DNA of 64,000 nt from Jejuia pallidilutea. Its GTDB lineage: Bacteria; Bacteroidota; Bacteroidia; Flavobacteriales; Flavobacteriaceae. The notes beneath the pieces were generated by a model, which saw nothing but the letters and a program-made list of their open reading frames with translations, did not search any database and was not told where the DNA came from. Below are positions 11,693 through 60,199 of this stretch, piece after piece; positions within the stretch are counted from its first letter, which is position 1; every line of letters starts with the position of its first letter. The DNA lies in NCBI RefSeq assembly GCF_002973595.1, contig NZ_PVEO01000002.1, forward strand, positions 62,001 to 126,000, in the 5' to 3' direction. Made by a program: the position numbers and the translations under genes.

Positions 11693-11699
11693 TTCAGTT

Positions 11700-27032: not shown

Positions 27033-27051
27033 TTGTTATAATGACTAGTAG

Positions 27052-34515: not shown

Positions 34516-34529
34516 TTCGACCAATAACA
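34516..34529 (-). promoter_or_regulatory. candidate LytTR-regulon operator, sulfatase operon copy
   Basis: Minus-strand sequence TGTTATTGGTCGAA, matching the consensus NGTTRTYBGTCKAW seen at five other places. It also shares an upstream half with the LamG copies: CCAACA, four bases, TTTAGA, two bases, then the 14-mer, in the same register. A partial TAnnTT box follows 29 bp downstream. Function as an operator is inferred. Confidence 0.6.
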
Positions 34530-34687
34530 AATCTAAAAAGGTGTTGGTAATAAATACTGATGAATTATTAAAAAACAGATAGGTTTCTCGAAAATGTTTG
34601 CTTAAAAAAATTTACTAGTCAAATTATTATAATAACAAAAGAAGTTAATGGTATAATAGTTTGTTTTTATGCTTTAAATATTATGGC

Positions 34688-34724
34688 AAAAAAAAAAAAC
34701 AGTACTAAAAAAATAGTACTGTTT
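34688..34724 (-). terminator. Rho-independent terminator after LamG gene
   Basis: On the minus strand an 11-bp perfect stem (arms 34714-34724 and 34697-34707, 6-nt loop) is followed by a run of T (the A-run at 34688-34698 on the plus strand). It lies about 30 bp after the stop of the LamG gene at 34755, so it closes that unit before the sulfatase operon. Confidence 0.85.
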
Positions 34725-34754
34725 GACTTAAAACTTTAATAATCGATTTACGAA

Positions 34755-35858
34755 TTAGTTTTTAAGAATTTTTAAGTTGGCTACTTTATTATCTTCTATA
34801 ACTTTAACAATATATAAACCAGAATTTAAGTTTCTCATATCAACAGAATTACCAGAAGTTCTTATAATATTTTTTCCAGTAATATCAAATACACTAATTT
34901 GCAACGATTTGTTGCTTTTAGTTTCAAGATACAAAAAGTCTTCTACAGCATTTGGGTAGGCTTTAAGTTCACCAAAAGCAAAATTTCCTGTACTCAGTAC
35001 ATTTTCATTGTAAAGCGCCAGAATTTCTGCCGCAGAAAGTTCTTCGTCAAAAATTCTAACGTCGTCTATTCCGCCACCGTCAAACCATTTTTGGTTATTA
35101 GCCCTCGTACCAATAATAACTTTGTCATCGGTTGTAGCCATTACATTTGATGCACCATTTGTGCCACCTCCATCATGAGTAACCTCAACACCATCGATGT
35201 ACATTTTAATAGCTGATATTAATTCGGTTCCTCCACCTGTAGTATAGGCTACATGATGCCAGTTACCATCTTCTATTACTACAGGGTCGTAATCATAATT
35301 TAAACCAGCCCCACCTATTCCTAATTGCATTCTATCATTAGCTCCAGCAATTTGTAAAGTGTTTCTAGCAAAAGTAGCACCATTTGGAGTTCCACCAATT
35401 TGTACTATCACATGTGATCCATTGGTACTGTTGTTTCTATCATCGTACCTAAACCAAGCAGATACTGTTCGTGCATCGTTACCAGTAATACCTAAATTGG
35501 CGTTACTTATAATTTGAGCATCATAACTTCCACCTCCATTTTGAATTAATGGGAAATTAGCATCTACACCTTCTTCTCCTATTGCAGAAAAGTTTATGGC
35601 ATAAGACCCTTCTATACTACCAGGTACTGAACCTATACCTGTTAAAAATGAAGTAATAGTACCAGTAGAATATGGCACTGAAACTCCCGTGCTTTGGTTT
35701 CCTTCAACGGCGAAGGTTAAACCAAGGCTTCCATCATTATCTAAATTGTTTTCAAACTTTAAATGTACTAACGGTGTTGGTGTTTGTGCTTGCACCGTTG
35801 CAAATGCTAAAAACAAGATTGCAACAAATGTTAATTTTTTAAGTAATTTTTTCATCAT
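34755..35858 (-). CDS. LamG-domain protein with T9SS sorting domain (copy 2)
   Basis: A 367-residue secreted protein: signal peptide (1-24, ends VQAQ), one LamG/concanavalin-like jelly-roll domain (about 28-275; strand motifs VSAWFRYDD, WHHVAYT, MYIDGVEV, IDDVRIFDEELSAAEI), then a type IX sorting domain (about 295-367; LKAYPNAVEDFLYLET, GLYIVKV, ending KNLKILKN-like). No glycosidase catalytic residues are visible; a surface glycan-binding role is the most economical guess. Its signal peptide and last 75 or so residues are almost identical to the neighbour at 36210-37313 while the middle differs. It is transcribed alone, with its own operator-like element and terminator. Confidence 0.88.
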   Translation of the reverse strand: MMKKLLKKLTFVAILFLAFATVQAQTPTPLVHLKFENNLDNDGSLGLTFAVEGNQSTGVSVPYSTGTITSFLTGIGSVPGSIEGSYAINFSAIGEEGVDANFPLIQNGGGSYDAQIISNANLGITGNDARTVSAWFRYDDRNNSTNGSHVIVQIGGTPNGATFARNTLQIAGANDRMQLGIGGAGLNYDYDPVVIEDGNWHHVAYTTGGGTELISAIKMYIDGVEVTHDGGGTNGASNVMATTDDKVIIGTRANNQKWFDGGGIDDVRIFDEELSAAEILALYNENVLSTGNFAFGELKAYPNAVEDFLYLETKSNKSLQISVFDITGKNIIRTSGNSVDMRNLNSGLYIVKVIEDNKVANLKILKN

Positions 35859-35918
35859 ATGTTAATTTTGTAGATTAATGATTAAATATATGTAGCGGTA
35901 GCAGGCAATCCTTTTTTT

Positions 35919-35932
35919 TTCGACGGACAACA
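35919..35932 (-). promoter_or_regulatory. candidate LytTR-regulon operator, LamG copy 2
   Basis: Minus-strand TGTTGTCCGTCGAA, 61 bp before the ATG. Exactly 28 bp separate it from a minus-strand TATATTTA (35883-35890), a close match to the Bacteroidota -7 box TAnnTTTG. A T-run follows the element on the plus strand. Conserved in sequence and position with the LamG copy 1 site. Confidence 0.68.
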
Positions 35933-36141
35933 CTTCTAAAGCCTTGTTGGTTAAAATATAATTTTATAGTTATTAAACAGTTACAATAAAAAGTTTGATT
36001 AATTTTTATAATTAGTCAAATTAAAATATCAGTTTTTTAGAAATCAAACTGCTAGTAGTTTTGTTGTGAAATATCTGTTTAACCTAGCTTTCAATATTTA
36101 TTCCTTAAATTTTGAAATTACTTGGTCAAATTTTTGAAATG

Positions 36142-36178
36142 AAAAAAATCCTGTTATATGATTTAGATATAACAGGAT
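36142..36178 (-). terminator. Rho-independent terminator after LamG gene (copy 1)
   Basis: A 12-bp perfect stem (36148-36159 and 36167-36178, 7-nt loop) followed on the minus strand by a T-run (plus-strand A-run 36142-36148). It starts about 32 bp after the stop of the LamG gene at 36210. Confidence 0.87.
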
Positions 36179-36209
36179 ATATTTTATAGTTTAATAAATT
36201 CTTAATTAA

Positions 36210-37313
36210 TTATTTTTTTAGAATTTTTAAGTTAGCTACTTTATTGTCTTCTCTAACCTTAACAATGTACATACCAGAATTTAAAGCGCTCATATCTACA
36301 GATGTACCATAGCTTCTTATAATATTTTTTCCAGTAATATCAAATACACTAATTTGTAACGATTTATCACTTGTGGTTTCAAGATATAAAAAGTCTTCTA
36401 CAGCATTTGGATATGCTTTAAGTTCATTTTCACCAAAAGCTACATCTCCTACAGAAAGTGCATTACCCCCATTAAAAGTGTTTAAAACTTGAGCCGGTGT
36501 TAGGGCAAAATCGTAAATCCTGAGGTCGTCTAGACTACCTCCGTCAAACCATTTGCTTCTAAATTGTAAGTCCATAGCTATAGAGATTGGAGAATCTACT
36601 GTAGACAAAGGGCCAGCACCTAATGTTGCGTTGGCTGGAGTGTTTGGCACAAGTACACCATCTAAATAAAAAGCGATGTCTTCTACCTTAGTACCTGGAT
36701 AAGTAACCGCTACATGGTGCCAAGGTGAATTGGCAGGAGTAACTACGTCCATAATTTTAGATCTTCTGGTTATATTATCAGCACCTTCAAATAAAGCAGT
36801 AGATCTACCAGCTGTGTATATTGTTACAAGTCCTCCATTATTTGCATCGACTATAAAAAGGAACCTCCCTTGGTCGGGCACACTAAAACCAGGACCAAAA
36901 TTAGCTATACAATAATTACCATTACTGGTTGTTAAGTCGTCATCAAATCTAACCCAAGCGGTTACACTACGTGCAGCATTTCCTGTAATACCAGAATTTG
37001 CGTTACTTTGAATACCAGCGTCGTCATTATTTTGAATTAATGGTACATTAGGATCAACTGGATCAGCTGAAGCATCAATATTACCAAAATCTAAAGTAGA
37101 ATTACCTTCCTTACCAGGACTTAGATAAGCTAAATTAGCAGTTCCAACCTCTGTACCAGTAAGTGAAAATGTAAGACCACTTGAACCAGTAGCAGTTAAA
37201 TCATTTTCAAATCGTAAATGTACAAAAGCATCAGGGTCTTGTGCTTGAGCAGTCGCAAATATTAAGAATAGGATTGCAACAAAAAATAATTTTTTAAGTA
37301 ATTTTTTCATCAT
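36210..37313 (-). CDS. LamG-domain protein with T9SS sorting domain (copy 1)
   Basis: A 367-residue secreted paralogue of the neighbouring LamG protein. Signal peptide 1-24, LamG domain about 28-280 (VTAWVRFDDD, WHHVAVTYPG, FYLDGVLVP, LDDLRIYDFALTPAQV), then the same T9SS sorting tail (LKAYPNAVEDFLYLET...VANLKILKK). The two genes match almost perfectly at both ends and diverge in the binding domain, a pattern expected if the domain is under diversifying change or has been swapped. It has its own promoter-like element and terminator. The ligand is unknown. Confidence 0.88.
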   Translation of the reverse strand: MMKKLLKKLFFVAILFLIFATAQAQDPDAFVHLRFENDLTATGSSGLTFSLTGTEVGTANLAYLSPGKEGNSTLDFGNIDASADPVDPNVPLIQNNDDAGIQSNANSGITGNAARSVTAWVRFDDDLTTSNGNYCIANFGPGFSVPDQGRFLFIVDANNGGLVTIYTAGRSTALFEGADNITRRSKIMDVVTPANSPWHHVAVTYPGTKVEDIAFYLDGVLVPNTPANATLGAGPLSTVDSPISIAMDLQFRSKWFDGGSLDDLRIYDFALTPAQVLNTFNGGNALSVGDVAFGENELKAYPNAVEDFLYLETTSDKSLQISVFDITGKNIIRSYGTSVDMSALNSGMYIVKVREDNKVANLKILKK

Positions 37314-37373
37314 AAGTTTATTTTATTGATTAATATTTAAATTTATATAATAGTAGTGTGTACTCCTTTTTTT

Positions 37374-37387
37374 TTCGACGGACAACG
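37374..37387 (-). promoter_or_regulatory. candidate LytTR-regulon operator, LamG copy 1
   Basis: Minus-strand CGTTGTCCGTCGAA, 61 bp before the ATG, with TAAATTTA (37338-37345, minus) 28 bp downstream as a -7-like box. The flanking sequence back to about 37408 is nearly identical to that of the other LamG gene. Confidence 0.68.
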
Positions 37388-37519
37388 CTTCTAAAGCCTT
37401 GTTAGTCAAAAAAACTGCATCTTTTCAATTATTTCGTAGGAGTTTATTATTTCAATACGTCTGTTTTTCAATACATTAACCTACACAACAAGCTTAATTA
37501 TCTTAATTAAAAATACTTA

Positions 37520-38698
37520 CTATTCGTACGTTATGTATGCAGAAACCAACCAATGATTCGCTTTTCCTTCTTCAGCCTTTGTTGCGGGAATAGTTATTTT
37601 GATACTGTGTTTTCCGGCTTCTAAATCACCTAAATCTACTGCGAATGGCTCTACTTTAGACCCAGGACACCAGTTAGACCTAGAAAGATCTGATGAAGCT
37701 AAGCGTTCTTCTATTTCTTTTACCGCACGTTTTCTTGTTTTTGGGTCTCTATAATACGCAGAATCTTTTCTTAACCAAACACCCGAAGTTGGGTTAAACC
37801 GTCTAAAAGAAGCACAATCATCACGCCATGGGATTGTATCTAATACTAATTTATTATCGAAGTAAACACTGTTTTTTATTTTGGTAAACTCATCGCCTCC
37901 TCTATGACCGCCATGACCTGTGGTGATATAATGCAATTTTACATTCTTCAGGTTTTTTGGTAATTGAAAATTATATTCTAATGGTCCATCAGCGAAGAAA
38001 TAAGGTAATGCTTGTCCTTTACCATACTTTACGGTGTTCACTAACGACATTACTTTGCGCTGTTTTTTAGCTCTTCCAGAATAGCTCAAAGTTACATCAA
38101 ATTTATAGCCTGTTTTTGTCCATGAGTCTATCCAAACGCCGATATAGAATGTACCGGTAACCACATCTTCTAAATGCGAAATATCCTGATTCCAAACCAC
38201 TTCTTTTTCCCACTTCGGAATGTAAACAGGTTTTAAATACTTACGCTCATCGTTACTATAATGTCCAACACCAAAAGGTGTCATAAAACGTAACAATTCT
38301 ATAACTGGTGTGTAATTACTGGTAGGTAAAACGCCGCCATGTTTCTCTGTGACATAAGATGCCTTTGGGAAATTTGCGTTTCCGTTTGCCACGTCTAGAA
38401 TTGAAATATCATCAGGATTGGTAATTACAAAACAAGAACCAGATTTATCCCATTTATCACCATTAGATCTTAACTTCAATTTTAAGTGTACATCAGTACC
38501 GTTCTCAAAGGTGGGTACGGTTACTTTTTTAATTACCAGGCGCCCACCAAATAATCTTATAACCTCAGGGTCAATATTAGTGCTATCGGGCTTTCCATAA
38601 TTTATAATTTGATTGGAAAAAACAGTTTGTTCTACACTATTTTGAGAAGACGTTATACCACAAACAACCAGTGATATAGCGATAATTATTTTTTTCAT
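37520..38698 (-). CDS. PNGase F-like peptide-N-glycosidase
   Basis: A 392-residue exported protein (signal to about residue 19) of the PNGase F fold, which hydrolyses the amide linking N-glycans to asparagine. Two jelly-roll domains are expected. Visible landmarks: GDKWDK with Asp84 at the place of PNGase F Asp60, LLRFMTPFGVGH (135-146), WIDSW with Asp191 where PNGase F has Glu118, GHGGHRGGDE with Glu270 at the place of Glu206, and SNWCPG. Alignment to the Elizabethkingia enzyme is from memory. It is last in the N-glycan operon and overlaps the GH92 gene by 4 nt (ATGA). It has no T9SS tail, so it is probably periplasmic, unlike the larger relative at 53820. Confidence 0.88.
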   Translation of the reverse strand: MKKIIIAISLVVCGITSSQNSVEQTVFSNQIINYGKPDSTNIDPEVIRLFGGRLVIKKVTVPTFENGTDVHLKLKLRSNGDKWDKSGSCFVITNPDDISILDVANGNANFPKASYVTEKHGGVLPTSNYTPVIELLRFMTPFGVGHYSNDERKYLKPVYIPKWEKEVVWNQDISHLEDVVTGTFYIGVWIDSWTKTGYKFDVTLSYSGRAKKQRKVMSLVNTVKYGKGQALPYFFADGPLEYNFQLPKNLKNVKLHYITTGHGGHRGGDEFTKIKNSVYFDNKLVLDTIPWRDDCASFRRFNPTSGVWLRKDSAYYRDPKTRKRAVKEIEERLASSDLSRSNWCPGSKVEPFAVDLGDLEAGKHSIKITIPATKAEEGKANHWLVSAYITYE

Positions 38699-40914
38699 TT
38701 TAGATGGATATTAAGTACGGCATCGTTTACCAAATCGGAGTGATTTACAAAATAACCCTTGTGAGGTTTACCATTTAGTTCTATGTTATTGATAGTTCCG
38801 TTAGGATTTCCAGTTCTTTTTATTACAAGCTGTTTACCCTTGTAATATTTGGCATCTAAATCGATAGTAATTTTATCGAACATTGGCGCTGTTATCGTAT
38901 AAAATGGTTCTCCCGGGGAAATAGGATAAATACCCATCATACTATAAATTAACCACGCCGACATCGTACCAGTATCATCATTTCCAGGTAATCCATCAGG
39001 TGTGTTTTTAAAATATTGCGCTACTAAACCTCTTACTAGATTTTGACTTCGTTTTTCTTCGCCCTTTACATAATTAAACAAGAATGGATACCCAATATCG
39101 GGTTCGTTTGCCATATCGAATTGGTTGGTATCGAAAACCTTTTGTAATTGTTTGGCAAACTCTTTTTTACCCCCCATAAGTTTCATTAATCCTTTGGTAT
39201 CGTGCGATACCATGAATGCATATTGATACGCATTACCTTCTATAAAGCCAATATTTTTGGTAAAATTGGCACCTGCAAGCGGATTAAAAGGCGTGTACCA
39301 AGAACCGTCTGGGTTCTTAGGGCGTAACAATTTAAGTTTTGTATCGTATAAATTTCTATAGGTTAAAGATTGCTTTGAAAACCTTTTATAATCGTCCTTT
39401 TTACCTAATCGTTTTGCTAAAAGTGCGATAGCAAAATCGCTAATATTATACTCTTGGGTTGTTGATACCGAACCCGCATTTTTAGTCGTTAAAAACCCGT
39501 TAGAAATATATTCTTGTATACCTGGTCTTAATGGATTGTTTTCTAATTGAGTAGCACTTTTTCGCATTGCGGTATATGCCTTTTCTACATCGAAATCAGT
39601 AATCCCTTTTAAATACGTATCGGTGAGTATAATGCCTGCAGGGTCTCCAACCATAGTTGTAGTTTCGGTTGCATTTAATTCCCATTTCGGTAACCAGCCA
39701 CTTTCATCGTAAATTTGAAGCATACTTTTAACCATGTTCGATTGTTGCTTAGGATACACTAACGACATAAGCTGATGCAGGTTACGATATGTATCCCAAA
39801 ATGAAAATACTGTAAAACGAGTACCATTGGTTTTTAAAGTTTCCCGCGTTGCCATACTCGGGTATTCTCCATTATAATCGTTTAGGGTATTTGGGTGAAT
39901 TAATGTGTGGTATAAGGCCGTATAAAAAATAGTTTTGTCGTCTTTACTGCCTCCTTCAACTTTTATTTTTGATAGTAACTTATTCCAATTAGATTTAGTT
40001 GATGCGTAGATTGCTTCAAATGATAATTGTTCTGTTTCTTTCTTTAAATTCTCTCGAGCATTCTCTATACTAATATAAGATATCCCTACCTTAACTTCCA
40101 CCTGAGTTGGCTCCTTAAAGTGATATTTAAAATAGGCACCAATACTATCACCTATCACTTCTTTTTTAAAGCCTTCCATAGTTCTGGTTTTACCATTGTA
40201 AGGCATCCATTGGGCTTCATGTCCGTTATTTTTATATGGTGTTTTCCAAGTGCCGTAAGAATCGGCGGGTTTACTGAATTGCGCTACAAAGTACAGCGGA
40301 TACGCCTCTTCTGGTTTATAGTAACAAAACGATCCAACAGTACGCTTACCTTCAATTTCTGTAGGTGATACTATTTTTAAAGATGCCCCCATTTCATTTG
40401 TTAAGCCTAAGCCTAAATTGAGTAAAATATTAGATTCTCCCTTCGGGAACGAATACCTTGAAACGCCAACTCTTGTAGATGCCGTAGTTTCAACTTTAAC
40501 GTTATACTTATTTAATTCTGTGCTATAATATCCTGCTTTGGCAACTTCATTTTTATAAGTACTGCCATATTTTAGATGATTAGTTTCTACTGCACCCGTA
40601 GTAGGCATTAATAGCACAACACCTAAATCTGGACAACCTACTCCGCTTAAATTAACATGTGAAAAACCTGTTAAAAATGTATTTTCATGAACGTACGGAT
40701 TAGACAACCATCTGCTATCTTTTTCCATAGTATTTTGAGAGCCGGAAACGTTAAACGGCGAGACACTTGCCATTCCACGAGGCGCAATAGCCCCAGGATT
40801 TGTAGCTCCAAAATTTGAAGTTCCAATAAAAGGATTTACATAATCTACAACCTCTTGTGCTTCTACTACAAATTGCCAAAATAACAGCACTATTAAAAAA
40901 CACGTAATTCTCAT
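38695..40914 (-). CDS. GH92 alpha-mannosidase
   Basis: A 739-residue exported GH92 enzyme (signal cleavage near VEAQ, residue 20). Motifs: YVNPFIGTSNFG, NPGAIAPRGMASVSPF (an unusual form of the PGAT.PFG block), GFSHVNLSGVGCPDLG, LYHTLIHPN, and GNDDTGTMSAW near the C-terminus. The ARG-type substitution and GNDD instead of GNED separate it from the other two GH92 proteins, so it may act on another alpha-mannose linkage. It overlaps the PNGase gene by 4 nt and is 1 nt from the GH20. Confidence 0.93.
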   Translation of the reverse strand: MRITCFLIVLLFWQFVVEAQEVVDYVNPFIGTSNFGATNPGAIAPRGMASVSPFNVSGSQNTMEKDSRWLSNPYVHENTFLTGFSHVNLSGVGCPDLGVVLLMPTTGAVETNHLKYGSTYKNEVAKAGYYSTELNKYNVKVETTASTRVGVSRYSFPKGESNILLNLGLGLTNEMGASLKIVSPTEIEGKRTVGSFCYYKPEEAYPLYFVAQFSKPADSYGTWKTPYKNNGHEAQWMPYNGKTRTMEGFKKEVIGDSIGAYFKYHFKEPTQVEVKVGISYISIENARENLKKETEQLSFEAIYASTKSNWNKLLSKIKVEGGSKDDKTIFYTALYHTLIHPNTLNDYNGEYPSMATRETLKTNGTRFTVFSFWDTYRNLHQLMSLVYPKQQSNMVKSMLQIYDESGWLPKWELNATETTTMVGDPAGIILTDTYLKGITDFDVEKAYTAMRKSATQLENNPLRPGIQEYISNGFLTTKNAGSVSTTQEYNISDFAIALLAKRLGKKDDYKRFSKQSLTYRNLYDTKLKLLRPKNPDGSWYTPFNPLAGANFTKNIGFIEGNAYQYAFMVSHDTKGLMKLMGGKKEFAKQLQKVFDTNQFDMANEPDIGYPFLFNYVKGEEKRSQNLVRGLVAQYFKNTPDGLPGNDDTGTMSAWLIYSMMGIYPISPGEPFYTITAPMFDKITIDLDAKYYKGKQLVIKRTGNPNGTINNIELNGKPHKGYFVNHSDLVNDAVLNIHLK

Positions 40915-40915
40915 T

Positions 40916-43252
40916 TTAATGTATTAAAATTTCATCTACAAAAATCCAACCCTCATTTCGTTCTCTTATATGATGAGATAAACTTAGTTTTACTTTTACA
41001 ACTCTTGCTTTTATGGGCTCGAATTCTAAATTAAACTCTTTGAGTTCTGTTTCTTTATTGGGTTTAAAAGCCCGATTAAAAGATTTTACTTCTACAAATT
41101 CCTTTCCGTTTTTCGAAACAAAAACTTGTATCTTGGAGGGATAAAAGATAGCATTTTTTTGATTCTCCATACTTCCGATGGTTACGCGTTTAATGTCTTT
41201 CTCCTCTCCTAAATCAATAATAACTTCTGCATCTTCGTTTAACCAAGCCTGCCACCTTCCATCGCGGAAATTTTTAGTTCCACGTAAGGTATTTACAAGA
41301 TTAAAATCTCCAGACCCTTGATATCTGTTATGGTATTTGGTGATATAATCTACTTTACTAGATACTGCTTTATGAAATGTTATGGTATCTTTAAACACCA
41401 TTCCTGTTGGCTTATTCTCCTTAAACATAGCGGCCTTAACCACTGTGGTACGCTTTAATTTAATAGGCGTGACAAACTTTGCAGACTGTTCGTTTAATTC
41501 TGCATCACCAAAAGCATACCGAATATCTGAATCTAGAAATTCATTGTGCAACGTTAGTTCCACAGATTTATCTTCAGCATTCGCTTCTACTTTTGAAGTA
41601 ATAATATAAGCACTTTTAGCATAGTTAATATCTAATAACTCGAAACGTTGCATCATAGTTTTTAAACGTCCAGAAAAATCGTTCCAATCTCTTAATTCTT
41701 TAGGGCTCCATAGCGTTTCGGATAATGCAGTTAACCTCGGAAAAATCATGTATTGCGAATGGTCTTCCGTTGGTATATGTTCTGCCCAAACATTGGCTTG
41801 CCCACCTAAAATATGTTTTGCTTCTTCCGTACTTAGTTCATCAACAATTGGTTCAAAATCGTACACTTTACTTACTGTGATTACCGAGCCACCTGCTTTG
41901 GGTTCATACTCTGGAGGTCCTTGGTAATAATCGAAATAGCAATATCCAACCGGAGACATTATAGCATCGTTTCCATATTTTGCAGCTTCAACACCTCCTT
42001 TAACACCGCGCCAACTCATAACAGTGGCTTCCGGAGCTAAACCACCTTCTAAAATTTCATCCCAGCCTATTAATTTTTTTCCTTTTGAATTTATAAACTT
42101 TTCTATTCGTTTTATAAAATAACTTTGAAGTTCTTCTACATTTTTTAACCCTTCTTGGGCGATACGTTTTTTACAATGTACGCACTTCTCCCAATTGGTT
42201 TTAGTAGCTTCATCCCCTCCAATATGTATGTATCTAGAGGGAAATATTTCCATAACCTCTAACAAGATATCTTCTAAAAACTGAAAGGTACTTTCTTTTC
42301 CAGCACAATATATATCGGTAATTGGCCATAAAGCACCTGAAGGCACCGCAATTGGTTGCTCATGACATGATAATTCTGGATACGCTGCAATAGCGCTTGA
42401 AACGTGCGCAGGCATTTCTATTTCTGGCACTACTTCAACACCCTTTAAAGCAGCATAAGCTACAATGTCTTTTAAATCTTCTTGAGTTAAATAACCACCG
42501 TAAGTACCTTTTTCTTTCGGGTTATTTTCTGTTCTTGAATTCCAAGGCAAATGTTCTTGATCTACGCGCCACGCACCAACTTCGGTAAGTTTTGGATATT
42601 TTTTTATTTCGATACGCCACCCTTGGTCGTCTACCAAATGCAAGTGTAAAATGTTTAATTTATGAAGAGACAACGCATCAATCGTTTCTTTTATATATGC
42701 TTTATTGAAAAAATGACGTGATAAATCCAACATTAATCCACGCCAAGGAAATCTAGGTCCATCAACAATATCAACATTTGGGATTTGCCAATCTATATCT
42801 TTTACAACTGTTGTGCTTTCTATTTCTACTGGTAATAATTGTCTTAAGCTTTGTACAGCGTATAAAAATCCTGAGCTATCGGATGCGGAAATTGTTATTC
42901 CGTTTTCGTTAACCTTTAATGCATAAGCTTCAGCATCTAAACCAACATCAGTTTTAAAAGCAACATAATTGTTTTTGGGAATTGTACTTACAATAGGCAA
43001 ATTCCAACCCGAAGCATTTTTAAATTTATCAATGAGTAATTGAGCCGCTATTTTTTGTTGTTGGTTGGAAGCTACAAAAACGGTGTTTTCGTTAAACTGA
43101 AACACGCCTGAATTCAGTTGTAAACTCCCTACTTTTGGTATAATTTGTATATCTGATTCTTGATATGCAATACTAGCTTTCTCCTTGCAGGCATTTAGTA
43201 AAACAAAGGTAACGGCTAGAATAGAAAAACAACTAAAACATCTGATTTTCAT
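40916..43252 (-). CDS. GH20 beta-N-acetylhexosaminidase with discoidin-like C-terminus (lipoprotein)
   Basis: A 778-residue lipoprotein (LLNAC, Cys22). GH20b domain about 35-160; TIM barrel with RHF (179-181), HLVDDQGWR (205-213), PEIEMPAH (276-283) and HIGGDE with catalytic Asp347/Glu348. A chitobiase C-terminal-like stretch (about 560-640) leads to an F5/8 type C (discoidin-like) domain (about 650-778; GRWQAWLNEDAEVIIDLG, HIRERNEGWIFVDEI). The tail probably binds glycan. In the N-glycan operon it would remove antennal GlcNAc or split chitobiose. Confidence 0.95.
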   Translation of the reverse strand: MKIRCFSCFSILAVTFVLLNACKEKASIAYQESDIQIIPKVGSLQLNSGVFQFNENTVFVASNQQQKIAAQLLIDKFKNASGWNLPIVSTIPKNNYVAFKTDVGLDAEAYALKVNENGITISASDSSGFLYAVQSLRQLLPVEIESTTVVKDIDWQIPNVDIVDGPRFPWRGLMLDLSRHFFNKAYIKETIDALSLHKLNILHLHLVDDQGWRIEIKKYPKLTEVGAWRVDQEHLPWNSRTENNPKEKGTYGGYLTQEDLKDIVAYAALKGVEVVPEIEMPAHVSSAIAAYPELSCHEQPIAVPSGALWPITDIYCAGKESTFQFLEDILLEVMEIFPSRYIHIGGDEATKTNWEKCVHCKKRIAQEGLKNVEELQSYFIKRIEKFINSKGKKLIGWDEILEGGLAPEATVMSWRGVKGGVEAAKYGNDAIMSPVGYCYFDYYQGPPEYEPKAGGSVITVSKVYDFEPIVDELSTEEAKHILGGQANVWAEHIPTEDHSQYMIFPRLTALSETLWSPKELRDWNDFSGRLKTMMQRFELLDINYAKSAYIITSKVEANAEDKSVELTLHNEFLDSDIRYAFGDAELNEQSAKFVTPIKLKRTTVVKAAMFKENKPTGMVFKDTITFHKAVSSKVDYITKYHNRYQGSGDFNLVNTLRGTKNFRDGRWQAWLNEDAEVIIDLGEEKDIKRVTIGSMENQKNAIFYPSKIQVFVSKNGKEFVEVKSFNRAFKPNKETELKEFNLEFEPIKARVVKVKLSLSHHIRERNEGWIFVDEILIH

Positions 43253-43263
43253 AGCCTTGAATT

Positions 43264-44280: not shown

Positions 44281-44289
44281 TTTAATTCT

Positions 44290-45405: not shown

Positions 45406-45407
45406 AT

Positions 45408-46478: not shown

Positions 46479-46481
46479 TAT

Positions 46482-47450: not shown

Positions 47451-47488
47451 CTTCAATCTATTAAATTTTTTTTAAGTTGTGTTAAATC

Positions 47489-49369: not shown

Positions 49370-51621
49370 TAAAACTCGGTTTTTGTAGTCCCCCAATCTT
49401 TATTTGGAGATGCGCCCATTACAAAATGAAGTATACCGCCGTTTAAGATCGTTTCATGAGAAATTGAAGTATTATTAAAAGGCTCACCATTTAAAGTAGC
49501 AGATTGTATATAAATGTTTTTATCTGACACATGTTCTGCTTCAATAGTGAATGTTTTTCCGTTAGGTAAATTAAATGTTGAAGTATCAAAAATTGGGCTT
49601 CCAATTTCATACTCAGTTGAAGCAGGATTCATAGGATACAACCCTACAGAACTCAACACATACCACGCACTCATTTGTCCGCAATCTTCATTACCACTTA
49701 AACCATTTGGTGATGTGTTGTACTGAGAATCTAGTATTTGTCGAGACATAAACTGTGTGCGCCACGGTTTACCAACACCATTAAACATATATGCAATATG
49801 ATGACTTGGTTCGTTTCCGTGAGCATACTGCCCAATTAATCCTGAAATATCAGCAGATACGTTTGTTCCTGTAATCTCAGAACTTTCTGTAAACAGTTGC
49901 TCTAATCTTTCTGTAAATATTTCGTTCCCACCATGTAACATGGCTAAGTCTTCCACAGCATGTGGCACAAACCAGCTGTGTTGCCACGCGTTACCCTCGG
50001 TATAATCGGTATGTTCTCTATGGTTGGAGTATTTGGGGTCGAATGGTTCGTGCCAAGAAACACCATCAATAGATTTTCCTCTCATAAAGCCTGTTCCTTT
50101 ATCAAACAAATGTTCATAAGCTTTAGATCGATTTAAAAATAATTTATAGTCGTCTTCTTTTCCTAAAGCTTTAGCCATTTGTGCTACGCACCAGTCATCG
50201 TAGGCGTACTCTAGTGTAATCGTTACAGATTCATCTAATAAATTATAAGGAATGTAGCCATACTTTTTATAATGGTTTAATCCGCGTTCATCTTGCATCA
50301 TAGTGGTTTTCATGGCTTCATAGGCTTTTTCAGCATCAAACCCTTTTATACCTTTTAAATAAGCCTCTACAATAACAGGAATAGAATGATACCCCGTCAT
50401 GGTATTGGTTTCATTGGCATAAAGTGTCCAAACGGGTAATATGTTTTTAGTTTCGTAATACGACAACATAGAATTTATAATATCTGAAACCACATTCGGC
50501 GACGTTAACGTTAACAAAGGGTGTTCTGCCCTAAAGGTATCCCATAAGGACAGTGTGGAATACGCCGTAAAATCTTTGGCAGTTGCAATCTCATCATTCT
50601 CTTTTCGGTATTCACCATTTTTATCACTAAATGTAACAGGTGCAACGTGCGCATGGTACATCGCCGTGTAGAATATTGTTTTAAGCGAATCGGTATCAGT
50701 ATCTACAGTAATTTTAGATAACACCTCATTCCAAGTGTTTTCGGCTTTTGCCTTTACGCTTTCAAACTCAAAACCAGATGCTTCTAAATTAGCTTTAGCA
50801 TTTTCAATACCAACCGAAGACAGCGCTACTTTTACCTGTAACTCATTATTTTCAATATCATTAAAAAACAATTGTGCCGCAGTTTTTACACCTTTAATAT
50901 CTTTGGTATCAACACTTTTATTATCTGCAGCTAAATGATAGCCAATTATGGGTTTTGAGAACTTTGCTACAAAAAACACTTTTTGGTTTTTTGCCCACCC
51001 TGTACTAAATCTATGTCCAGAAATGGTAAAGTCGTCCTCTACTTTTAACCCAGAACTTGTGGCTTTATCCCAATTTATGGCGAACCCTAAATCTATAACT
51101 ACAGATTGTTCGTCGTTAGCTTTAAATGTATACTTATGGTAAGCTGTTCGTTTAGATGTTGTTAATTCTACATTTATATTATGGTCTTCTAAATACACCT
51201 GATAATATCCTGGAGAAGCATTTTCATTTTTATGATTATATAATGATTTATAATCTAACGAATCTCTAGATTTCGGCATCTTTACAATATTTACCTCTTT
51301 GTTTACTGGCATAAATATTATATCGGCCAAATCGCCAATACCAGTACCACTTAATGCTAAGTGACTAAAACCAACAGCAATAGAATCTGAATAATGATAG
51401 CCAGAACACCAGTCCCAACCGCTAATACCATTTACAGGCGTAACTTGCAACATTCCAAAAGGTACCGTTGCACCTGGGTAAGTATGCCCATGGCCACCAG
51501 TTCCTATAAAAGGATTTACATATTTTGTTAAAATTTGTGTGTTGTTGTGGTTTTTACTAATATTTTTGCTGCAACTAACTGCAAAAAGAATGAGTGTAAA
51601 AAGTAGTATTACTTGTTTCAT
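49369..51621 (-). CDS. GH92 alpha-mannosidase (lipoprotein), first gene of the N-glycan operon
   Basis: A 750-residue GH92 lipoprotein (LFAVSC, Cys17). Motifs: YVNPFIGTGGHGHTYPGATVPFG, GFSHLALSGTGIGDLAD, MYHAHVAPVTFSD, GNEDCGQMSAWYV, and a C-terminal beta-domain. It matches the standard GH92 pattern most closely of the three copies. It starts 127 bp from the divergent histidine kinase gene; a 14-bp candidate operator lies 61 bp upstream of its ATG. As first gene it may set the expression level of the whole nine-gene operon. Confidence 0.95.
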   Translation of the reverse strand: MKQVILLFTLILFAVSCSKNISKNHNNTQILTKYVNPFIGTGGHGHTYPGATVPFGMLQVTPVNGISGWDWCSGYHYSDSIAVGFSHLALSGTGIGDLADIIFMPVNKEVNIVKMPKSRDSLDYKSLYNHKNENASPGYYQVYLEDHNINVELTTSKRTAYHKYTFKANDEQSVVIDLGFAINWDKATSSGLKVEDDFTISGHRFSTGWAKNQKVFFVAKFSKPIIGYHLAADNKSVDTKDIKGVKTAAQLFFNDIENNELQVKVALSSVGIENAKANLEASGFEFESVKAKAENTWNEVLSKITVDTDTDSLKTIFYTAMYHAHVAPVTFSDKNGEYRKENDEIATAKDFTAYSTLSLWDTFRAEHPLLTLTSPNVVSDIINSMLSYYETKNILPVWTLYANETNTMTGYHSIPVIVEAYLKGIKGFDAEKAYEAMKTTMMQDERGLNHYKKYGYIPYNLLDESVTITLEYAYDDWCVAQMAKALGKEDDYKLFLNRSKAYEHLFDKGTGFMRGKSIDGVSWHEPFDPKYSNHREHTDYTEGNAWQHSWFVPHAVEDLAMLHGGNEIFTERLEQLFTESSEITGTNVSADISGLIGQYAHGNEPSHHIAYMFNGVGKPWRTQFMSRQILDSQYNTSPNGLSGNEDCGQMSAWYVLSSVGLYPMNPASTEYEIGSPIFDTSTFNLPNGKTFTIEAEHVSDKNIYIQSATLNGEPFNNTSISHETILNGGILHFVMGASPNKDWGTTKTEF

Positions 51622-51681
51622 TTAGGTTTTAGCATATTGATTTTATAAAATTTCATAATTTTAGTTATTAATGAAAGTAAT

Positions 51682-51695
51682 TTAGACGGATAACA
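51682..51695 (-). promoter_or_regulatory. candidate LytTR-regulon operator, N-glycan operon
   Basis: Minus-strand TGTTATCCGTCTAA in the gap between the divergent GH92 and histidine kinase genes, 61 bp before the GH92 ATG, the same distance as at both LamG genes. No clear TAnnTTTG box is at the expected spacing here. A shared position between divergent genes would also allow feedback on the regulator genes. Confidence 0.6.
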
Positions 51696-51748
51696 TAAGA
51701 ACTCGGCTAAACATCAAAAAAATAAACGACAAAGCTTTTTTATTTAGA

Positions 51749-52807
51749 ATGAAATTTAACTCAAACCAAAACTACAGAATATCAATATTTCATCATGTTA
51801 TATTTTGGTCGGTATATTTCCTATTCAATGTATTTAAATGGGGAAGTTATTTTGATGATTACGTATATTCTATTAAAACAAACTTATTTGGTTTCCCAAT
51901 CCACATGATCTTATGTTATTTCAACATATATTACTTAATGCCAAAATTTGTTTTTAAAAAAAGATACTTACCCTATATTATTATGATACTATCTGCCATA
52001 TTTATTATGGTAATAGTAAAATTTAACCTCACCTATTATTTAGTTAGTAATAATGTATGGCCCGAAGGCCCCGTACCTACAAACACGCTTACCCTTAACT
52101 ATGTTATTGATATGATGATTGGCGAACTTTACGTTATTACCTTTGTTACCGCCATTAAAATAACTTTAGACTTTTTAAAGGAACACAAACGGGTTGCCGA
52201 TTTGGAAAAAGCACAACTAGAAACAGAACTTTTGTTTTTAAAAACACAAATATCACCACATTTCTTTTTCAATACTCTTAACAACATATACTCTTTAGCT
52301 GTAGAAAATTCTAATAAAACACCTAAAATTATTCTAAAACTATCAGAATTAATGCGCTACCTCTTGTACGATACTGCTAGCAAAAGACAAAGCTTGGAAA
52401 ACGAAATACTCTGCATACAAAATTATATAGACTTAGAACGTATTCGCCATAACGATCAACTAGAAATAAACATGTCTATATCTGGCGATATACAAGACAA
52501 AGAAATAGCACCCATATTACTTTTATCGTTTATTGAAAACGCTTTTAAACATGGCGCCCATAAAAACATTGGAAACGTTAAAATTGATATAAGCTTAACC
52601 ATTAGAAAAGATTTTCTTTACTTTAGGATAGCCAATCCTATGCCCTCGAAAACTGAACATGAAGAACGTTTTAGTCACTCTAGCGGTATAGGCTTAGAAA
52701 ATGTAAAAAAACGACTAGCATTAGGGTACCATAAAAATGACTACAAGCTTATTATAAAAAATGTAAAAAATAAGTTTGTTGTAAAACTCAAAATAAAAGT
52801 AACTTAA
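51749..52807 (+). CDS. LytS-type sensor histidine kinase
   Basis: A 352-residue membrane sensor kinase. Four hydrophobic segments (about 12-30, 46-64, 74-97 and 115-140) precede a coiled stretch and the His_kinase domain, with the phosphoacceptor His171 in KTQISPHFFFNTLNN. An ATPase region follows (LLSFIENAFKHGAHK, GIGLENVKKRL). There is no large periplasmic sensor domain, unlike the hybrid two-component regulators usual for PULs. Its partner is the response regulator 55 nt downstream. What it senses is unknown; a membrane-embedded or indirect signal is likely. Confidence 0.93.
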   Translation: MKFNSNQNYRISIFHHVIFWSVYFLFNVFKWGSYFDDYVYSIKTNLFGFPIHMILCYFNIYYLMPKFVFKKRYLPYIIMILSAIFIMVIVKFNLTYYLVSNNVWPEGPVPTNTLTLNYVIDMMIGELYVITFVTAIKITLDFLKEHKRVADLEKAQLETELLFLKTQISPHFFFNTLNNIYSLAVENSNKTPKIILKLSELMRYLLYDTASKRQSLENEILCIQNYIDLERIRHNDQLEINMSISGDIQDKEIAPILLLSFIENAFKHGAHKNIGNVKIDISLTIRKDFLYFRIANPMPSKTEHEERFSHSSGIGLENVKKRLALGYHKNDYKLIIKNVKNKFVVKLKIKVT

Positions 52808-52862
52808 TGTTATTTTTCAGCATTTTTAAAAATAAATCAACAGAACAAAAAAGTTAATAGCA

Positions 52863-53573
52863 ATGAAAATAAAATGTTTAATAGTAGATGATGAGCCCTT
52901 GGCAATTAATGTTATTAAAAAATACCTAGAACAAATAGAGGAATTTGAGGTAATTAATACATTTACCAATGCTATAGATAGCTTAAACTTTTTAAAAACA
53001 AATGCTGTTGACGTTATTTTTTTAGATATAAACATGCCTGTTCTAGATGGCATTAATTTTATAAAAAGTTTAGAAAATCCACCCATGGTAATCATTACAA
53101 CTGCCTATAAAGAATTTGCAGTTGAAACTTATGAATTAGATGTATTGGATTATTTAATAAAGCCTATTGAGTTTCCTAGGTTTATGAAGGCCCTAAACAA
53201 AGTTAACAGAAGGCTCGAAAACAATAAAGCTATTTACGATACAACTAAGGAACGCCCCTATCTTTTTGTTAAAGTTGATAAAAAGAAAATGAAAAAAATA
53301 TTTTTGGACGAAATATTAACCGTTGAGTCCTTAAAAGATTACTTAAAAATTAATACTACTACAGGAAAGTATATTATACATAGTACCTTATCTGATTTTA
53401 CCGATTTACTACCATCCAGAGACTTTATAAGAATACATAGATCTTATACAATTGCTATTGACAAAATTGATGCCGTAGAAGGTAATAGTGTTGAAATAGA
53501 AGGTCTTAGATATGTTATAGGACGATCTTACATTGAAGCAGTAAAACAGAAAATATTAAATTCTTCTATATAG
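52863..53573 (+). CDS. LytTR-family response regulator
   Basis: A 236-residue regulator: receiver domain (1-120; VDDEP at 8-12, phosphoacceptor Asp55 in FLDINMP, conserved Lys in IKP) and a LytTR DNA-binding domain (about 135-236; ESLKDYLKI, RIHRSYTIAIDKI, GRSYIEAVKQK). LytTR proteins bind pairs of short direct repeats upstream of promoters. The 14-bp element repeated at this locus is the natural candidate target, but binding is inferred. It is the only transcription factor gene in the window. Confidence 0.94.
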   Translation: MKIKCLIVDDEPLAINVIKKYLEQIEEFEVINTFTNAIDSLNFLKTNAVDVIFLDINMPVLDGINFIKSLENPPMVIITTAYKEFAVETYELDVLDYLIKPIEFPRFMKALNKVNRRLENNKAIYDTTKERPYLFVKVDKKKMKKIFLDEILTVESLKDYLKINTTTGKYIIHSTLSDFTDLLPSRDFIRIHRSYTIAIDKIDAVEGNSVEIEGLRYVIGRSYIEAVKQKILNSSI

Positions 53574-53723
53574 AATACATCTTGCCTTTACTTTAAATGT
53601 TTTTTATCCTGTGTTATTTTTATGAGTGTTTTTTCACCCTTTTATATGCTGGCGTTTTAACCAAAGTAACCCCTTAAAAACCAAATAGTTTAGCTTAACA
53701 ACAATGCCTCATCGTTTGTACTT

Positions 53724-53737
53724 AGTTGTCTGTCTAT
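53724..53737 (+). promoter_or_regulatory. candidate LytTR-regulon operator, PNGase gene
   Basis: Plus-strand AGTTGTCTGTCTAT, 83 bp before the ATG of the large PNGase-like gene. It is the weakest match to the consensus (last base T). No convincing TAnnTTTG box was found at the spacing of 28-29 bp. The remainder of the 246-bp gap is AT-rich. Confidence 0.5.
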
Positions 53738-53819
53738 ACATTTACAGCATTTAGGGAAAAAATTAGATAGATACTTCTATTCTTTCTACATTAACTGTTT
53801 TAATCCTAAACAACATTTA

Positions 53820-56327
53820 ATGATGAAAAAATTACTTAAAAATTTAATGTTCATAATTTTGTTGGTTACTTCGTTTGTCACCTTCGGTCAGGCTAGTTTT
53901 CATTTTATAAATACACCTGCAGAATTTCATCCAGACGGTACTTTAGCTACTTCTTCACCCATTATTTTTGAGTTTCGTAATGTGCCTAATGATGCCAACA
54001 ACCTTATTAGTCTACGTTTTTATTTATATCCGAATGAAGATCCGCTTAGAGCATTTGATGATAATGGCGACCCCATTAATGATAATGTAAACTGGACAGG
54101 AGGCAATGATAAGATGAATATGTTGATGGGACTTTTAAATGATGCTGATGTAAATAATGGATTTTACAGAACAGAAACGGTAAATAATGGCGATGGTACC
54201 TTTACAAAAACCTATACCGTTTTTAATGTTTCCAATAATGGATCTGGCGATACTTATAAAAACGGAGGTATTGAAGATGGCGCCCATTATGCCCCTATAA
54301 TAAGAGTTGTACATGCTAACGGACAACCACGATACAATAATTCAGGAGTGCTGGGAATGGGTAATGGAAATAACCCACTTATAGTAGATCAAGCAACTTT
54401 AGATCAAAGTCCAGATATTATTGCTACCCACTTTGCATTTTCATATTATCCCCCAGAAGAAAACCAAACTACGGGCAATGGAGAATTTCCGCATATTACA
54501 GCAAACTCCTCCATTGATTTACTGGGAAGTGGAGATGGCTCTGGTAAACAAAACCAAATCATAACATTTGACCCGATAGGAAAGAAAAGTACCACTTCGT
54601 CGCCTTTTAATGTTACAGCCTCTTCTACTTCGGGTTTAACAAATATAACCTACAGTGTAGAATCTGGACCTGCAACAATAAGCGGTAATACCGTAACTTT
54701 AAATGGCTCAGTTGGAACCGTTACCTTAAAAGCGGAGCAGGATGGCAATGACGATTTTAATCCTGCTGAAACCTTTCAACAATTTGAAGTGATAGACCTT
54801 AGTACCTTCTCACCTTCCATTTCAACTCGACTAACAGAGGATTACCCTATAGAAATGCCATCATTTTATGCTTATCCTATTTATATAACATCTGCAATAG
54901 AAGAAGCCGAATTAATAGCTATAAATAATATAGAAGTTACGGTTGATGGTACCCCAATTACAGTTACAGATGAAAACAATTTACATTATGCACTGTGGAC
55001 ACCCAATGCTTATGGATTTCATACTATAAACATTACTGCCTATGGCTCTAACGGCATTAATACAACAATAACTAAAATTATTGAGGTAACTAATTCCATA
55101 AGTACCCAAAACGTTACAACCCTAGATGACGTTGTTATAGAGTTTAACAAAGAAAATAGCCGTAATTTCTATGGAACATATACAATGCCGCAGCATGTTG
55201 GTAGTTACAACCAAATTATTGCAAATTTATTGGTAGAATGTCCATCGGAAACAGGAGACTGTGATGATTGGGACCGTAGAGCATTTATTGACGTTAAGGG
55301 GCCAGATGGTAATTGGATTCAAATTATTCGATATATTACGCCCTATGGCGTAGGTTGTAATCATGCAATTGATTTAACCGATTATGCTAGCCTACTTCAA
55401 GGTGAAGTTGAATTTAGAATGTTTATTGACACTTGGGGAACAGGTGGTTGGCAAATATCTCTGGATTTTGATTTTCAACAGGGGTCACCCCAATATTTAT
55501 ATTCTAATGTTGATGAATTGTGGGATGGTTTCTGGGATCTTGGAGATCCAAATAATCTACAGCCTATTCCTGTTGTTAATTATAGTTACAACAGTAACGT
55601 AGAGAGTTCTCATTTGCGTCTATCAAATACTGGTCATGGCTGGGGAAGTAATAATTCTCAAAATGCTGCTGAGTTTTATGAGGCTACCAACTATATAGAT
55701 GTTGATGGCATACAAAATTACACACAACATTTATGGAACACGTGTAACCCAAATCCAGATAATTGTAGCCCTCAAAATGGCACTTGGAGATTTAATAGAG
55801 CGGGCTGGTGTCCTGGTACAATTGCGCCTCCTGACATTATAGATATGACGCCTCAAATTTCTAAAGGCACTGTAGATTTTAGGTATAGACTAGACCCTTC
55901 ATATGTTGATGAATGTCATCCAAACAACCCTAATTGTATTACTGGTGTAACTTGTAGTGATTGTAATGATGGATTTAACCCTAGATACCATATTGATGGA
56001 CAACTCATTAATTTTAGTAATACACCTTTAGTTCAAGGAACTTTAGATGTTACAACAATTAATAACACTGCTAACTACAAGTTGCACGCGTATCCAAATC
56101 CATCAAATGGTATTTTTCAAATATCGAGCTCAAGTCCATCTAATATTGGTAAATCTGTAATGTATGTAGTAACTGTTTCAGGTGAAATTATAAAATCTTA
56201 TTATTTCAATTCTGCTGAAGAACTAAACAATACCACATTCAATTTGTCATCATTAGCTAAAGGGCTTTATTTTGTTACTATAGAAAACAATGCTGGCCAA
56301 GGTAATTTAAAACTAATTATTGAATAA
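53820..56327 (+). CDS. large PNGase F-like protein, T9SS-secreted
   Basis: An 835-residue secreted protein. Signal peptide 1-23; an N-terminal region (about 26-230) I do not recognise; an Ig-like beta segment (about 245-325); another beta region (about 330-425); the PNGase-like part (about 430-745); and a T9SS sorting domain (about 755-835; AYPNPSNGIFQI...GLYFVTI). Landmarks: CDDWDR with Asp485 (PNGase F Asp60), RYITPYGVG, FIDTW with Asp537 where PNGase F has Glu118, NAAEF with Glu618 (Glu206), and RAGWCPG. Cysteine-rich segments in the C-terminal half suggest disulphides, fitting an extracellular protein. Likely the surface enzyme that frees N-glycans; the assignment is by motif comparison from memory. 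Confidence 0.84.
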   Translation: MMKKLLKNLMFIILLVTSFVTFGQASFHFINTPAEFHPDGTLATSSPIIFEFRNVPNDANNLISLRFYLYPNEDPLRAFDDNGDPINDNVNWTGGNDKMNMLMGLLNDADVNNGFYRTETVNNGDGTFTKTYTVFNVSNNGSGDTYKNGGIEDGAHYAPIIRVVHANGQPRYNNSGVLGMGNGNNPLIVDQATLDQSPDIIATHFAFSYYPPEENQTTGNGEFPHITANSSIDLLGSGDGSGKQNQIITFDPIGKKSTTSSPFNVTASSTSGLTNITYSVESGPATISGNTVTLNGSVGTVTLKAEQDGNDDFNPAETFQQFEVIDLSTFSPSISTRLTEDYPIEMPSFYAYPIYITSAIEEAELIAINNIEVTVDGTPITVTDENNLHYALWTPNAYGFHTINITAYGSNGINTTITKIIEVTNSISTQNVTTLDDVVIEFNKENSRNFYGTYTMPQHVGSYNQIIANLLVECPSETGDCDDWDRRAFIDVKGPDGNWIQIIRYITPYGVGCNHAIDLTDYASLLQGEVEFRMFIDTWGTGGWQISLDFDFQQGSPQYLYSNVDELWDGFWDLGDPNNLQPIPVVNYSYNSNVESSHLRLSNTGHGWGSNNSQNAAEFYEATNYIDVDGIQNYTQHLWNTCNPNPDNCSPQNGTWRFNRAGWCPGTIAPPDIIDMTPQISKGTVDFRYRLDPSYVDECHPNNPNCITGVTCSDCNDGFNPRYHIDGQLINFSNTPLVQGTLDVTTINNTANYKLHAYPNPSNGIFQISSSSPSNIGKSVMYVVTVSGEIIKSYYFNSAEELNNTTFNLSSLAKGLYFVTIENNAGQGNLKLIIE

Positions 56328-56877
56328 TAGTTCCTTTTAAGTACTATTAAGAAAGCAAAAACTTTAGCATAAATTTAGGTTTTGGCTTAATAAAAATACT
56401 ATGAACTGTTAAATACTAAATTATTAGAAACCTTAAAATAAACTTCATATAACAAATAATGAGCATTCAACATAAATACAGTATCATAATATTCATTACT
56501 CAATTAAGTTTCACAAATAATTAAGGTTTATTTAACATAATGTCTCATTTTTTGTCGAAGCGCTGAAGTTGTTGGTCGAATTTTTTCAACCCTAGAACAA
56601 AGAAATATTTAAGTTTAAACACTCAATATAAGGTAAGGAATAAGCATTTTCGGTTTAATATAATAATTGTCCATCTTTACACCTACTTTATTTTGGTATA
56701 AACGTATGAAACAACAGTAATTTACTTTTTGCTTAAATTCAATTTATTACTGAAGTTATAAAGCATAAGATAATTAAAACTAAACTAATAAAATTAAAAT
56801 TTCACTGTATGGTATAAAACTCTCATTCTAATATGAACAACTAATTAACTAATTGTATAATAATAACTAACAAGCTT
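56328..56877. other. intergenic region and leader ahead of susC
   Basis: 550 bp with no supported gene. A weak 7-bp stem (56325-56331 with 56343-56349) overlaps the stop of the preceding gene but has no T-run, so it is not called a terminator. The 14-bp element is at 56567-56580, with TAAGTTTA at 56610-56617. If transcription begins just after, the susC leader is about 250 nt, long enough for post-transcriptional control as known at other PULs; nothing specific was seen in it. Confidence 0.65.
56567..56580 (+). promoter_or_regulatory. candidate LytTR-regulon operator, susC
   Basis: Plus-strand AGTTGTTGGTCGAA. A second GTCGAA half-copy lies exactly 21 bp upstream (56554-56559), the two-turn spacing expected for LytTR direct repeats. 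A -7-like TAAGTTTA follows after 29 bp (56610-56617). Confidence 0.66.
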
Positions 56878-60186: not shown

Positions 60187-60199
60187 AAAAAGAATAATT

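Follow-up and report, generated by a model that had tools for sequence, protein, structure and literature searches.

A two-part operator that probably ties a LytS/LytTR pair to an N-glycan and sulfated-glycan degradation locus of Jejuia pallidilutea

The locus described here raises the question of how a long series of glycan-degradation genes, distributed over several transcription units, could be brought under common control. The stretch of DNA analysed, referred to below as the window, comprises 64,000 nucleotides of Jejuia pallidilutea (Flavobacteriaceae; RefSeq assembly GCF_002973595.1, contig NZ_PVEO01000002.1, positions 62,001 to 126,000), and a 14-bp element, NGTTRTYBGTCKAW, recurs in it ahead of genes for the use of N-glycans and sulfated glycans. 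Our analysis indicates that a LytS/LytTR pair encoded in the window very probably activates this locus through a two-part operator, of which the 14-mer is the promoter-proximal half. An earlier, sequence-only reading had suggested that the whole locus may be one LytTR regulon with a new operator. A LytTR regulon is the preferred reading because the element together with a promoter box occurs in 78 of 80 loci of close relatives versus 1 of 12 paralogous loci, because a partner half-site lies at 21 bp at most GH92 and SusC/MFS/NagB sites, and because a paralogous clade shows the same promoter phase (11/11). These three lines of sequence evidence support the proposal, which has to be amended in that the 14-mer is only the proximal half, a sensor kinase is added to the regulator and the copy at 53725 is weak.

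The kinase and regulator genes have the GH92-led operon on one side and the second PNGase gene on the other, with 55 bp from the end of the first to the start of the second.

51749 to 52807, plus strand: LytS-type sensor histidine kinase (PF06580 His_kinase, 4.2e-23)
52863 to 53573, plus strand: LytTR response regulator (PF00072 Response_reg, 3e-21; PF04397 LytTR, 3.8e-17)

The LytTR protein, earlier named as the sole regulator of the window, is thus present, but it forms a pair with the LytS-type kinase. The kinase is probably its partner, and the LytTR regulator is probably the protein that binds the element.

The window contains six exact matches of the pattern and no others, at the places and on the strands given by the sequence-only reading, and all six are intergenic and oriented toward the next gene. 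They are given here with their distal half-sites and -7 boxes, which are taken up below.

34516 to 34528, minus strand: copy 1 (GTTATTGGTCGAA), upstream of the sulfatase/GH operon; inverted distal half ACCAAC at 34543-34548; -7-like box TTACTTTA at 34480-34487, one mismatch
35919 to 35931, minus strand: copy 2 (GTTGTCCGTCGAA), upstream of LamG gene 1; inverted distal half ACCAAC at 35946-35951; -7 box TATATTTA at 35883-35890, exact
37374 to 37386, minus strand: copy 3 (GTTGTCCGTCGAA), upstream of LamG gene 2, a duplicate of copy 2; inverted distal half ACTAAC at 37401-37406; -7 box TAAATTTA at 37338-37345, exact
51682 to 51694, minus strand: copy 4 (GTTATCCGTCTAA), between lytS and the GH92-led N-glycan operon and upstream of the latter; direct distal half within 51703-51715 (GATGTTTAGCCGA, containing GTTTAG 21 bp upstream); -7 box AAATTTTA at 51646-51653, one mismatch
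53725 to 53737, plus strand: copy 5 (GTTGTCTGTCTAT), upstream of the second PNGase gene, the weakest copy
56568 to 56580, plus strand: copy 6 (GTTGTTGGTCGAA), upstream of susC; direct distal half ATTTTTTGTCGAA at 56547-56559; -7 box TAAGTTTA at 56610-56617, exact

The copies at 35919, 37374 and 51682 are separated from the ATG by 60 bases, which agrees with the 61 bp noted earlier if the count runs to the A. Copy 4 is the one most often conserved in relatives. Both LamG genes with their promoters (34755-37386) look like recent duplicates. Since copies 2 and 3 are duplicated promoters, the six copies, all of which exist, amount to five independent ones. Shuffled sequence would give 0.07 matches of the pattern in the window, a value that is too flattering because the pattern was derived from these same six copies, and the fair test is therefore the genome-wide count. 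The organism's own genome (4.11 Mb) contains 10 exact matches, six of them in this 22-kb part of the window, and 9 matches of the reversed pattern. None of the four outside precedes a gene: reading frames overlap two of them, and the remaining two are in gaps but point to the neighbour's 3' end. In most of 119 related genomes the 13-mer is no commoner than its reversed control, as judged by eye without totals. Thus the element is infrequent and clusters locally; the genome-wide count did not show it to be frequent outside the locus, which is what a regulon confined to a single locus would require.

The genes that the six copies face are the predicted targets.

890 to 34347, minus strand: same-strand run of sulfatase, GH29, GH92, GH20, GDSL, GH3, GH30 and GH95 genes
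34755 to 35858, minus strand: LamG protein 1 with a type IX sorting tail
36210 to 37313, minus strand: LamG protein 2 with a type IX sorting tail
37520 to 51621, minus strand: N-glycan operon
53820 to 56327, plus strand: second PNGase F-like protein, with a type IX sorting tail
56878 to 61921, plus strand: susC-susD pair

The N-glycan operon codes for GH92, an SSF transporter, GH130, CBM9-like, GHL10, asparaginase-like, GH20, GH92 and PNGase F proteins, so that it has its own PNGase F gene as the last gene (37520-38698).

Conservation was followed in 80 loci (1.59 Mb), the best of 449 that a search through named genomes confirmed. Their LytTR relatives are 58-84% identical, and the loci span Flavobacterium, Tamlana, Formosa, Maribacter, Gelidibacter, Tenacibaculum, Wenyingzhuangia, Hyunsoonleella and others. 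It was found that the exact pattern occurs 88 times in these loci, as compared to 6 times when reversed, and at least once in 60 of the 80; the lack of conservation that would have told against the earlier reading is not observed. With the window included there are 94 sites: 90 lie in gaps, oriented toward the following gene at a distance from its ATG of mostly 56 to 84 bp, three are inside reading frames and one gap site does not face a gene start. By similarity to the window proteins, the targets of the 90 sites are GH92 (42), GH29 fucosidase (27), SusC (7), sulfatase (2), MFS (2), LamG (2), SSF (1) and PNGase (1), and six are without a window homologue. Five of these six form, on reading their sequences, one NagB-like family, and Pfam assigns Glucosamine_iso and PIG-L to the member in L051; the sixth (L114, 6714-7608, from a Formosa metagenome-assembled genome) is CutC by Pfam. 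The target set, comprising GH92, GH29, SusC, NagB-like, sulfatase, MFS, SSF, PNGase and LamG genes, is coherent.

The position of the element relative to the promoter is equally regular. TAnnTTTR is the -7 type box of Bacteroidetes. For tests of spacing and box, 47 of the 90 sites were used, being intergenic, gene-facing, provided with full flanks and less than 70% alike (for the conservation profile the cut was 75%). With at most one mismatch, the box begins at offset 41 or 42 from the element start in 44 of the 47 sites, that is 28 or 29 bases downstream of the element; an exact box falls within offsets 38-45 in 24 of the 47. In the window it stands at the conserved distance exactly at 35919, 37374 and 56568 and with one mismatch at 34516 and 51682. 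What had been noticed for three copies is therefore a general rule (44/47), and the element would sit just upstream of the core promoter, at the seat of an activator as had been proposed. A weight matrix score of at least 11 together with the TAnnTTTR box was used to define element plus box. Sites so defined number 170 in 78 of the 80 loci, as compared to 8 sites in 8 loci when the same loci are read backwards, and the two loci without them (L101, L115) each still contain an exact 13-mer. Including the window there are 175, and 167 of these are intergenic and face a gene: GH92 (66), NagB-like (44), GH29 (35), SusC (8), SSF (6) and others (8).

A fairly fixed distance of this kind from element to gene start (medians of 59 bp for GH92, 62 for NagB and 75 for GH29) would also be expected if the element were a -35 or -10 type core motif of an alternative sigma factor dedicated to the locus, for example of the extracytoplasmic function (ECF) type, and the CGTC/GGTC core does resemble ECF -10 motifs. 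This explanation is nevertheless very unlikely in view of the ordinary TAnnTTTR box at a fixed distance downstream, the partner half commonly found 21 bp upstream and the company of the LytTR gene; among the 37 window proteins scanned with Pfam there is no sigma or anti-sigma family. Along with the sigma-factor motif, chance and, without a test, an attenuator were considered and set aside.

The LytTR half-site consensus is GTTNRK. It was scored upstream of the element with one mismatch allowed, in three classes of non-redundant sites: GH92 (n=13), SusC/MFS/NagB (n=12) and GH29/LamG/sulfatase (n=21). A match exactly 21 bp upstream was observed in 12 of 13 GH92 sites and 8 of 12 SusC/MFS/NagB sites, other spacings being mostly represented by 0-3 sites, except among GH92 sites, where 8, 6 and 5 matches occur at 11, 27 and 28 bp. 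The site has two parts, and the 14-mer is the one nearer the promoter. Canonical LytTR sites are pairs of 9-bp direct repeats 10-13 bp apart, according to the part of PMC11347149 available, and in LytTR regulatory systems the repeats are mostly 12 bp apart, just upstream of -35, according to the available part of PMC6193735. A 9-bp repeat and a 12-bp gap give a 21-bp period, so the sequence points to a LytTR-type repeat at most GH92 and SusC sites and at part of the NagB sites.

The fucosidase, LamG and sulfatase sites follow another layout. They do not show the direct repeat of about 21 bp found at the GH92 and SusC/MFS/NagB sites; in 12 of 21 there is an inverted half 23 bp upstream and in only 2 of 21 a direct one at 21 bp, which is not the textbook LytTR layout. 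The inverted half is ACCAAC-like and reads GTTGGT on the opposite strand. A larger set of GH29 sites (n=25) contains 14 inverted, 3 direct and 8 with neither, where background rates are 3% for inverted and 7% for direct halves. Both layouts exist side by side in the window: 51682 and 56568 are direct, 34516, 35919 and 37374 inverted, and 53725 neither. The operator appears new in sequence, as had been suggested, but not new in kind, and one class of its sites carries an inverted distal half. The 21-bp direct and 23-bp inverted layouts became separable only once the sites were split by target gene. Pooled self-similarity between element and upstream sequence gave a blurred picture, with several offsets above the null, and was discarded. 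With a leave-one-out matrix over the pooled 47 sites the best upstream match is direct at 21 in 9 sites and inverted at 24 in 11, as compared to a maximum of 5 at any offset in 300 shuffles. The predominance of inverted halves at fucosidase, LamG and sulfatase genes could mean that two proteins act at such sites, another activator occupying ACCAA-AC while LytTR occupies the element. We consider this unlikely, if by no means negligible, as the inverted half read on the other strand is the very word that the element contains, and genes that are not orthologous (fucosidase, LamG, sulfatase and two SusC) have it too.

Site and regulator also tend to go together. Twelve loci around a paralogous LytTR (46-52% identity) contain a single element-plus-box site, in 1 of 12 loci, and with the box requirement dropped they give 15 matrix matches against 24 in the control. 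Eight GH92 homologues are most like that of the window (60-100% identity), and all six in genomes with a LytTR relative (59-100% identity) have the site, with scores of 14.8-21.3. In G034, which lacks a close LytTR relative, the homologue is devoid of a site (best score 1.1). About 2.5 kb from it lies a hybrid two-component AraC-type regulator with a periplasmic-binding domain (L152 12069-14873), and an exchange of regulator type is possible there. Upstream of 22 more distant GH92 homologues no site scores above 10.6, reversed controls reaching 8.1. The regulator is present in G030 and G047, but there GH92 is inside an operon; the SSF transporter faces lytS and the site precedes that operon.

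A number of observations, in addition to the inverted layout, weigh against a simple LytTR regulon. The 80 loci were treated as orthologues from identity and context without a tree, and the related genomes are not independent of one another. Because the weight matrix and the box distance were learned from the same loci in which sites were then counted, the element-plus-box counts are not independent of these loci, a point that the reversed and paralogous loci answer only in part. Copy 5 has no distal half at either expected place and no -7 box at the conserved distance, the direct half at 21 bp is found in only 7 of 16 non-redundant NagB sites of the larger set, and among the classified sites none is assigned to lytS, so that autoregulation was not seen. 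In G017 a site precedes the GH92 gene (L151 11814) with a score of 13.6, just under the lowest of the six regulator-linked GH92 sites, and with a matching upstream half, yet the best LytTR is a 50% relative on another contig; this speaks against a strict tie of element to regulator. A long LamG protein with a type IX tail occupies the place of lytS in that genome. The sole element-plus-box match found for the paralogous loci, L153 16382, immediately precedes a NagB-like gene in a genome with a 54% paralogue as its best LytTR; this site may be real, and the tie between element and clade may thus not be strict.

These two sites would suit an operator belonging to a regulator encoded elsewhere, for instance a general regulator of N-acetylglucosamine or N-glycan use, to which the LytTR genes were mere neighbours. 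Such a regulator would keep its site in G017 and perhaps before the NagB-like gene of L153, both without a close LytTR relative, and the linkage of element and regulator is partly by design, as both were sampled via the LytTR gene. It would leave aside the 21-bp repeat of LytTR type, the related half-site and identical promoter phase of the paralogous LytTR clade, and the distribution over GH92 homologues, namely the missing site in G034, the low scores at the 22 distant homologues and the operon arrangement in G030 and G047. We regard it as very unlikely, and activation by the LytS/LytTR pair remains the preferred reading.

It was asked of the genome sequence how specific the element is when combined with the box. 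In a composite search of six genomes for element sites with a 28- or 29-base gap, one mismatch being allowed, the 28-base gap gave 19 matches against 2 in the control. By our own count from contig positions, 16 of the 19 are found no more than about 40 kb from lytTR on the same contig, another is a promoter of the chitin-type locus, and all four matches in the organism's own genome are inside the window. The 29-base gap is less favourable to the reading, with 14 matches against 11 in the control, and in the own genome two of its three matches are outside the window, each with one mismatch and no gene start nearby. The downstream gene was read for 8 of the 33 matches, chosen as not already known sites; by eye five face glycan-related genes (SusC, an MFS sugar transporter, a NagB-like gene, a GH92-like gene and a putative glycosidase) and three do not. 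The core alone with one mismatch gives 93 matches against 155 in the control and is therefore not specific once relaxed. A relaxed dyad pattern without the -7 box, again with one mismatch, was uninformative (10 matches versus 28, none at known sites).

The paralogous clade provides an additional view of the promoter arrangement. SusC promoters were examined in 9 of the 12 paralogous loci together with two of Flavobacterium johnsoniae CI04, making 11; L154, L157 and L158 were excluded because susC is not placed beside lytS in the same way. In 11/11 a repeat TGTYGTYYRT has its best period at 21 bp among 17 spacings, a result that is partly circular because the form of the half-site was written after viewing those promoters. 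The box is 42 bp from the second half in 11/11 (4 exact, 7 with one mismatch), this distance having been taken over from the N-glycan sites, though it had been hand-counted beforehand in 2 of the 11. The CI04 locus (L178) contains a chitinase-like frame (by eye), GH20, NagB-like, two SusC, a LytS-type kinase, a LytTR regulator and an MFS transporter, and its two SusC promoters (10269-10593 and 16436-17090) both combine the 21-bp repeat with a box that is exact and 42 bp away from the second half. Its gene content matches that described for ChiUL, the chitin utilization locus of F. johnsoniae. Deletion of cusS and cusR in ChiUL led to no growth on chitin and absence of ChiA, as reported in the available part of PMC5127042; the CI04 pair would be cusSR, as we infer, although the text of that paper contains no word starting with LytT or LytS.

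In a grid of spacings over the N-glycan loci, 21/42 forms a peak of 51 matches, 45 of them with the element. The combination 25/38 also gives 51 (42 with the element), mostly the same sites in a second register, 21/34 gives 38, none with the element, which look like one conserved sequence elsewhere in the four examples viewed, and 20/37 and 19/37 give 26 and 25 mixed matches. A third LytTR set (17 loci, each of about 3.7 kb or less with little flank) has no clear peak and one match at 21/42. It could be that local control of polysaccharide utilization loci in Flavobacteriaceae has LytS/LytTR pairs as one general class of regulator, all with one grammar (half-21-half-42-TAnnTTTG box), and that a single LytTR protein reads both layouts: the direct one at genes for import and mannosidases, and the one whose distal half is inverted at genes for fucosidases, lectins and sulfatases; our confidence in this wider proposal falls a little short of even. 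If it is true, the two layouts could give different promoter strengths or timing inside one regulon.

On the model favoured here, the LytTR regulator encoded in mid-locus would be controlled by the adjacent LytS-type kinase, the six copies being the regulator's proximal half-sites. A dimer of the phosphorylated regulator would bind two half-sites about two helical turns apart, in an operator immediately upstream of a weak promoter of Flavobacteriaceae type with TAnnTTTR 28-29 bp below the element, and would thereby activate the whole N-glycan and sulfated-glycan degradation locus. The sequence itself shows the sites, their tie to close relatives of this regulator, the repeat and the fixed distance to the box, whereas binding by the LytTR protein, activation rather than repression, occupancy by a dimer and a glycan-derived signal are inferred. 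Local sensor-regulators of polysaccharide loci are also known in the form of AraC-type hybrid two-component systems (HTCS), of which the G034 regulator is an example. An HTCS is a single fused protein with an AraC-type helix-turn-helix, whereas the window system has two proteins and a LytTR domain. Closer in kind is CusS/CusR, a two-component pair encoded next to SusC/D genes, on which both growth on the polysaccharide and ChiA depend (PMC5127042, in the part available, which names no operator), with the LytS-type kinase, LytTR regulator, repeat and box phase of the matching CI04 locus. It differs in belonging to another clade (48-49% identity to the window LytTR), in its half-site sequence and in serving chitin, not N-glycan. 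With the canonical LytTR operators of AgrA, HdrR/BrsR and RcoM/CoxC the direct sites of the window share the direct repeats; AgrA binds two of them with the centre of the proximal repeat near -60 (PMC4227749, in the part available). The window system differs from these in its Flavobacteriaceae promoter with a box in fixed phase, its extended CKAA end and its class of sites with an inverted distal half. Systems of this kind are already known; what appears to be new is the sequence of the operator, its regulon and, in this family, the fixed phase of the promoter, none of the titles and abstracts listed from open-licence PubMed Central papers describing the operator.

These findings offer an operator and a regulon for N-glycan use in Flavobacteriaceae that can be tested, with a likely regulator named. 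By the sequence rule half-21-half-42-box, the regulons of other LytTR regulators in the family may be readable from genomes, and the inverted-half sites would bear on the flexibility of the LytTR dimer. Two smaller features of the locus were observed. The MFS transporter gene of the window (62166-63497) is without an element of its own, and the MFS genes of the relatives L042 and L117 and, as seen by eye, of G004 have one. The sulfatase operon contains two GH3 and GH30 pairs (10265-14390 and 24441-28449), as if a module had been duplicated.

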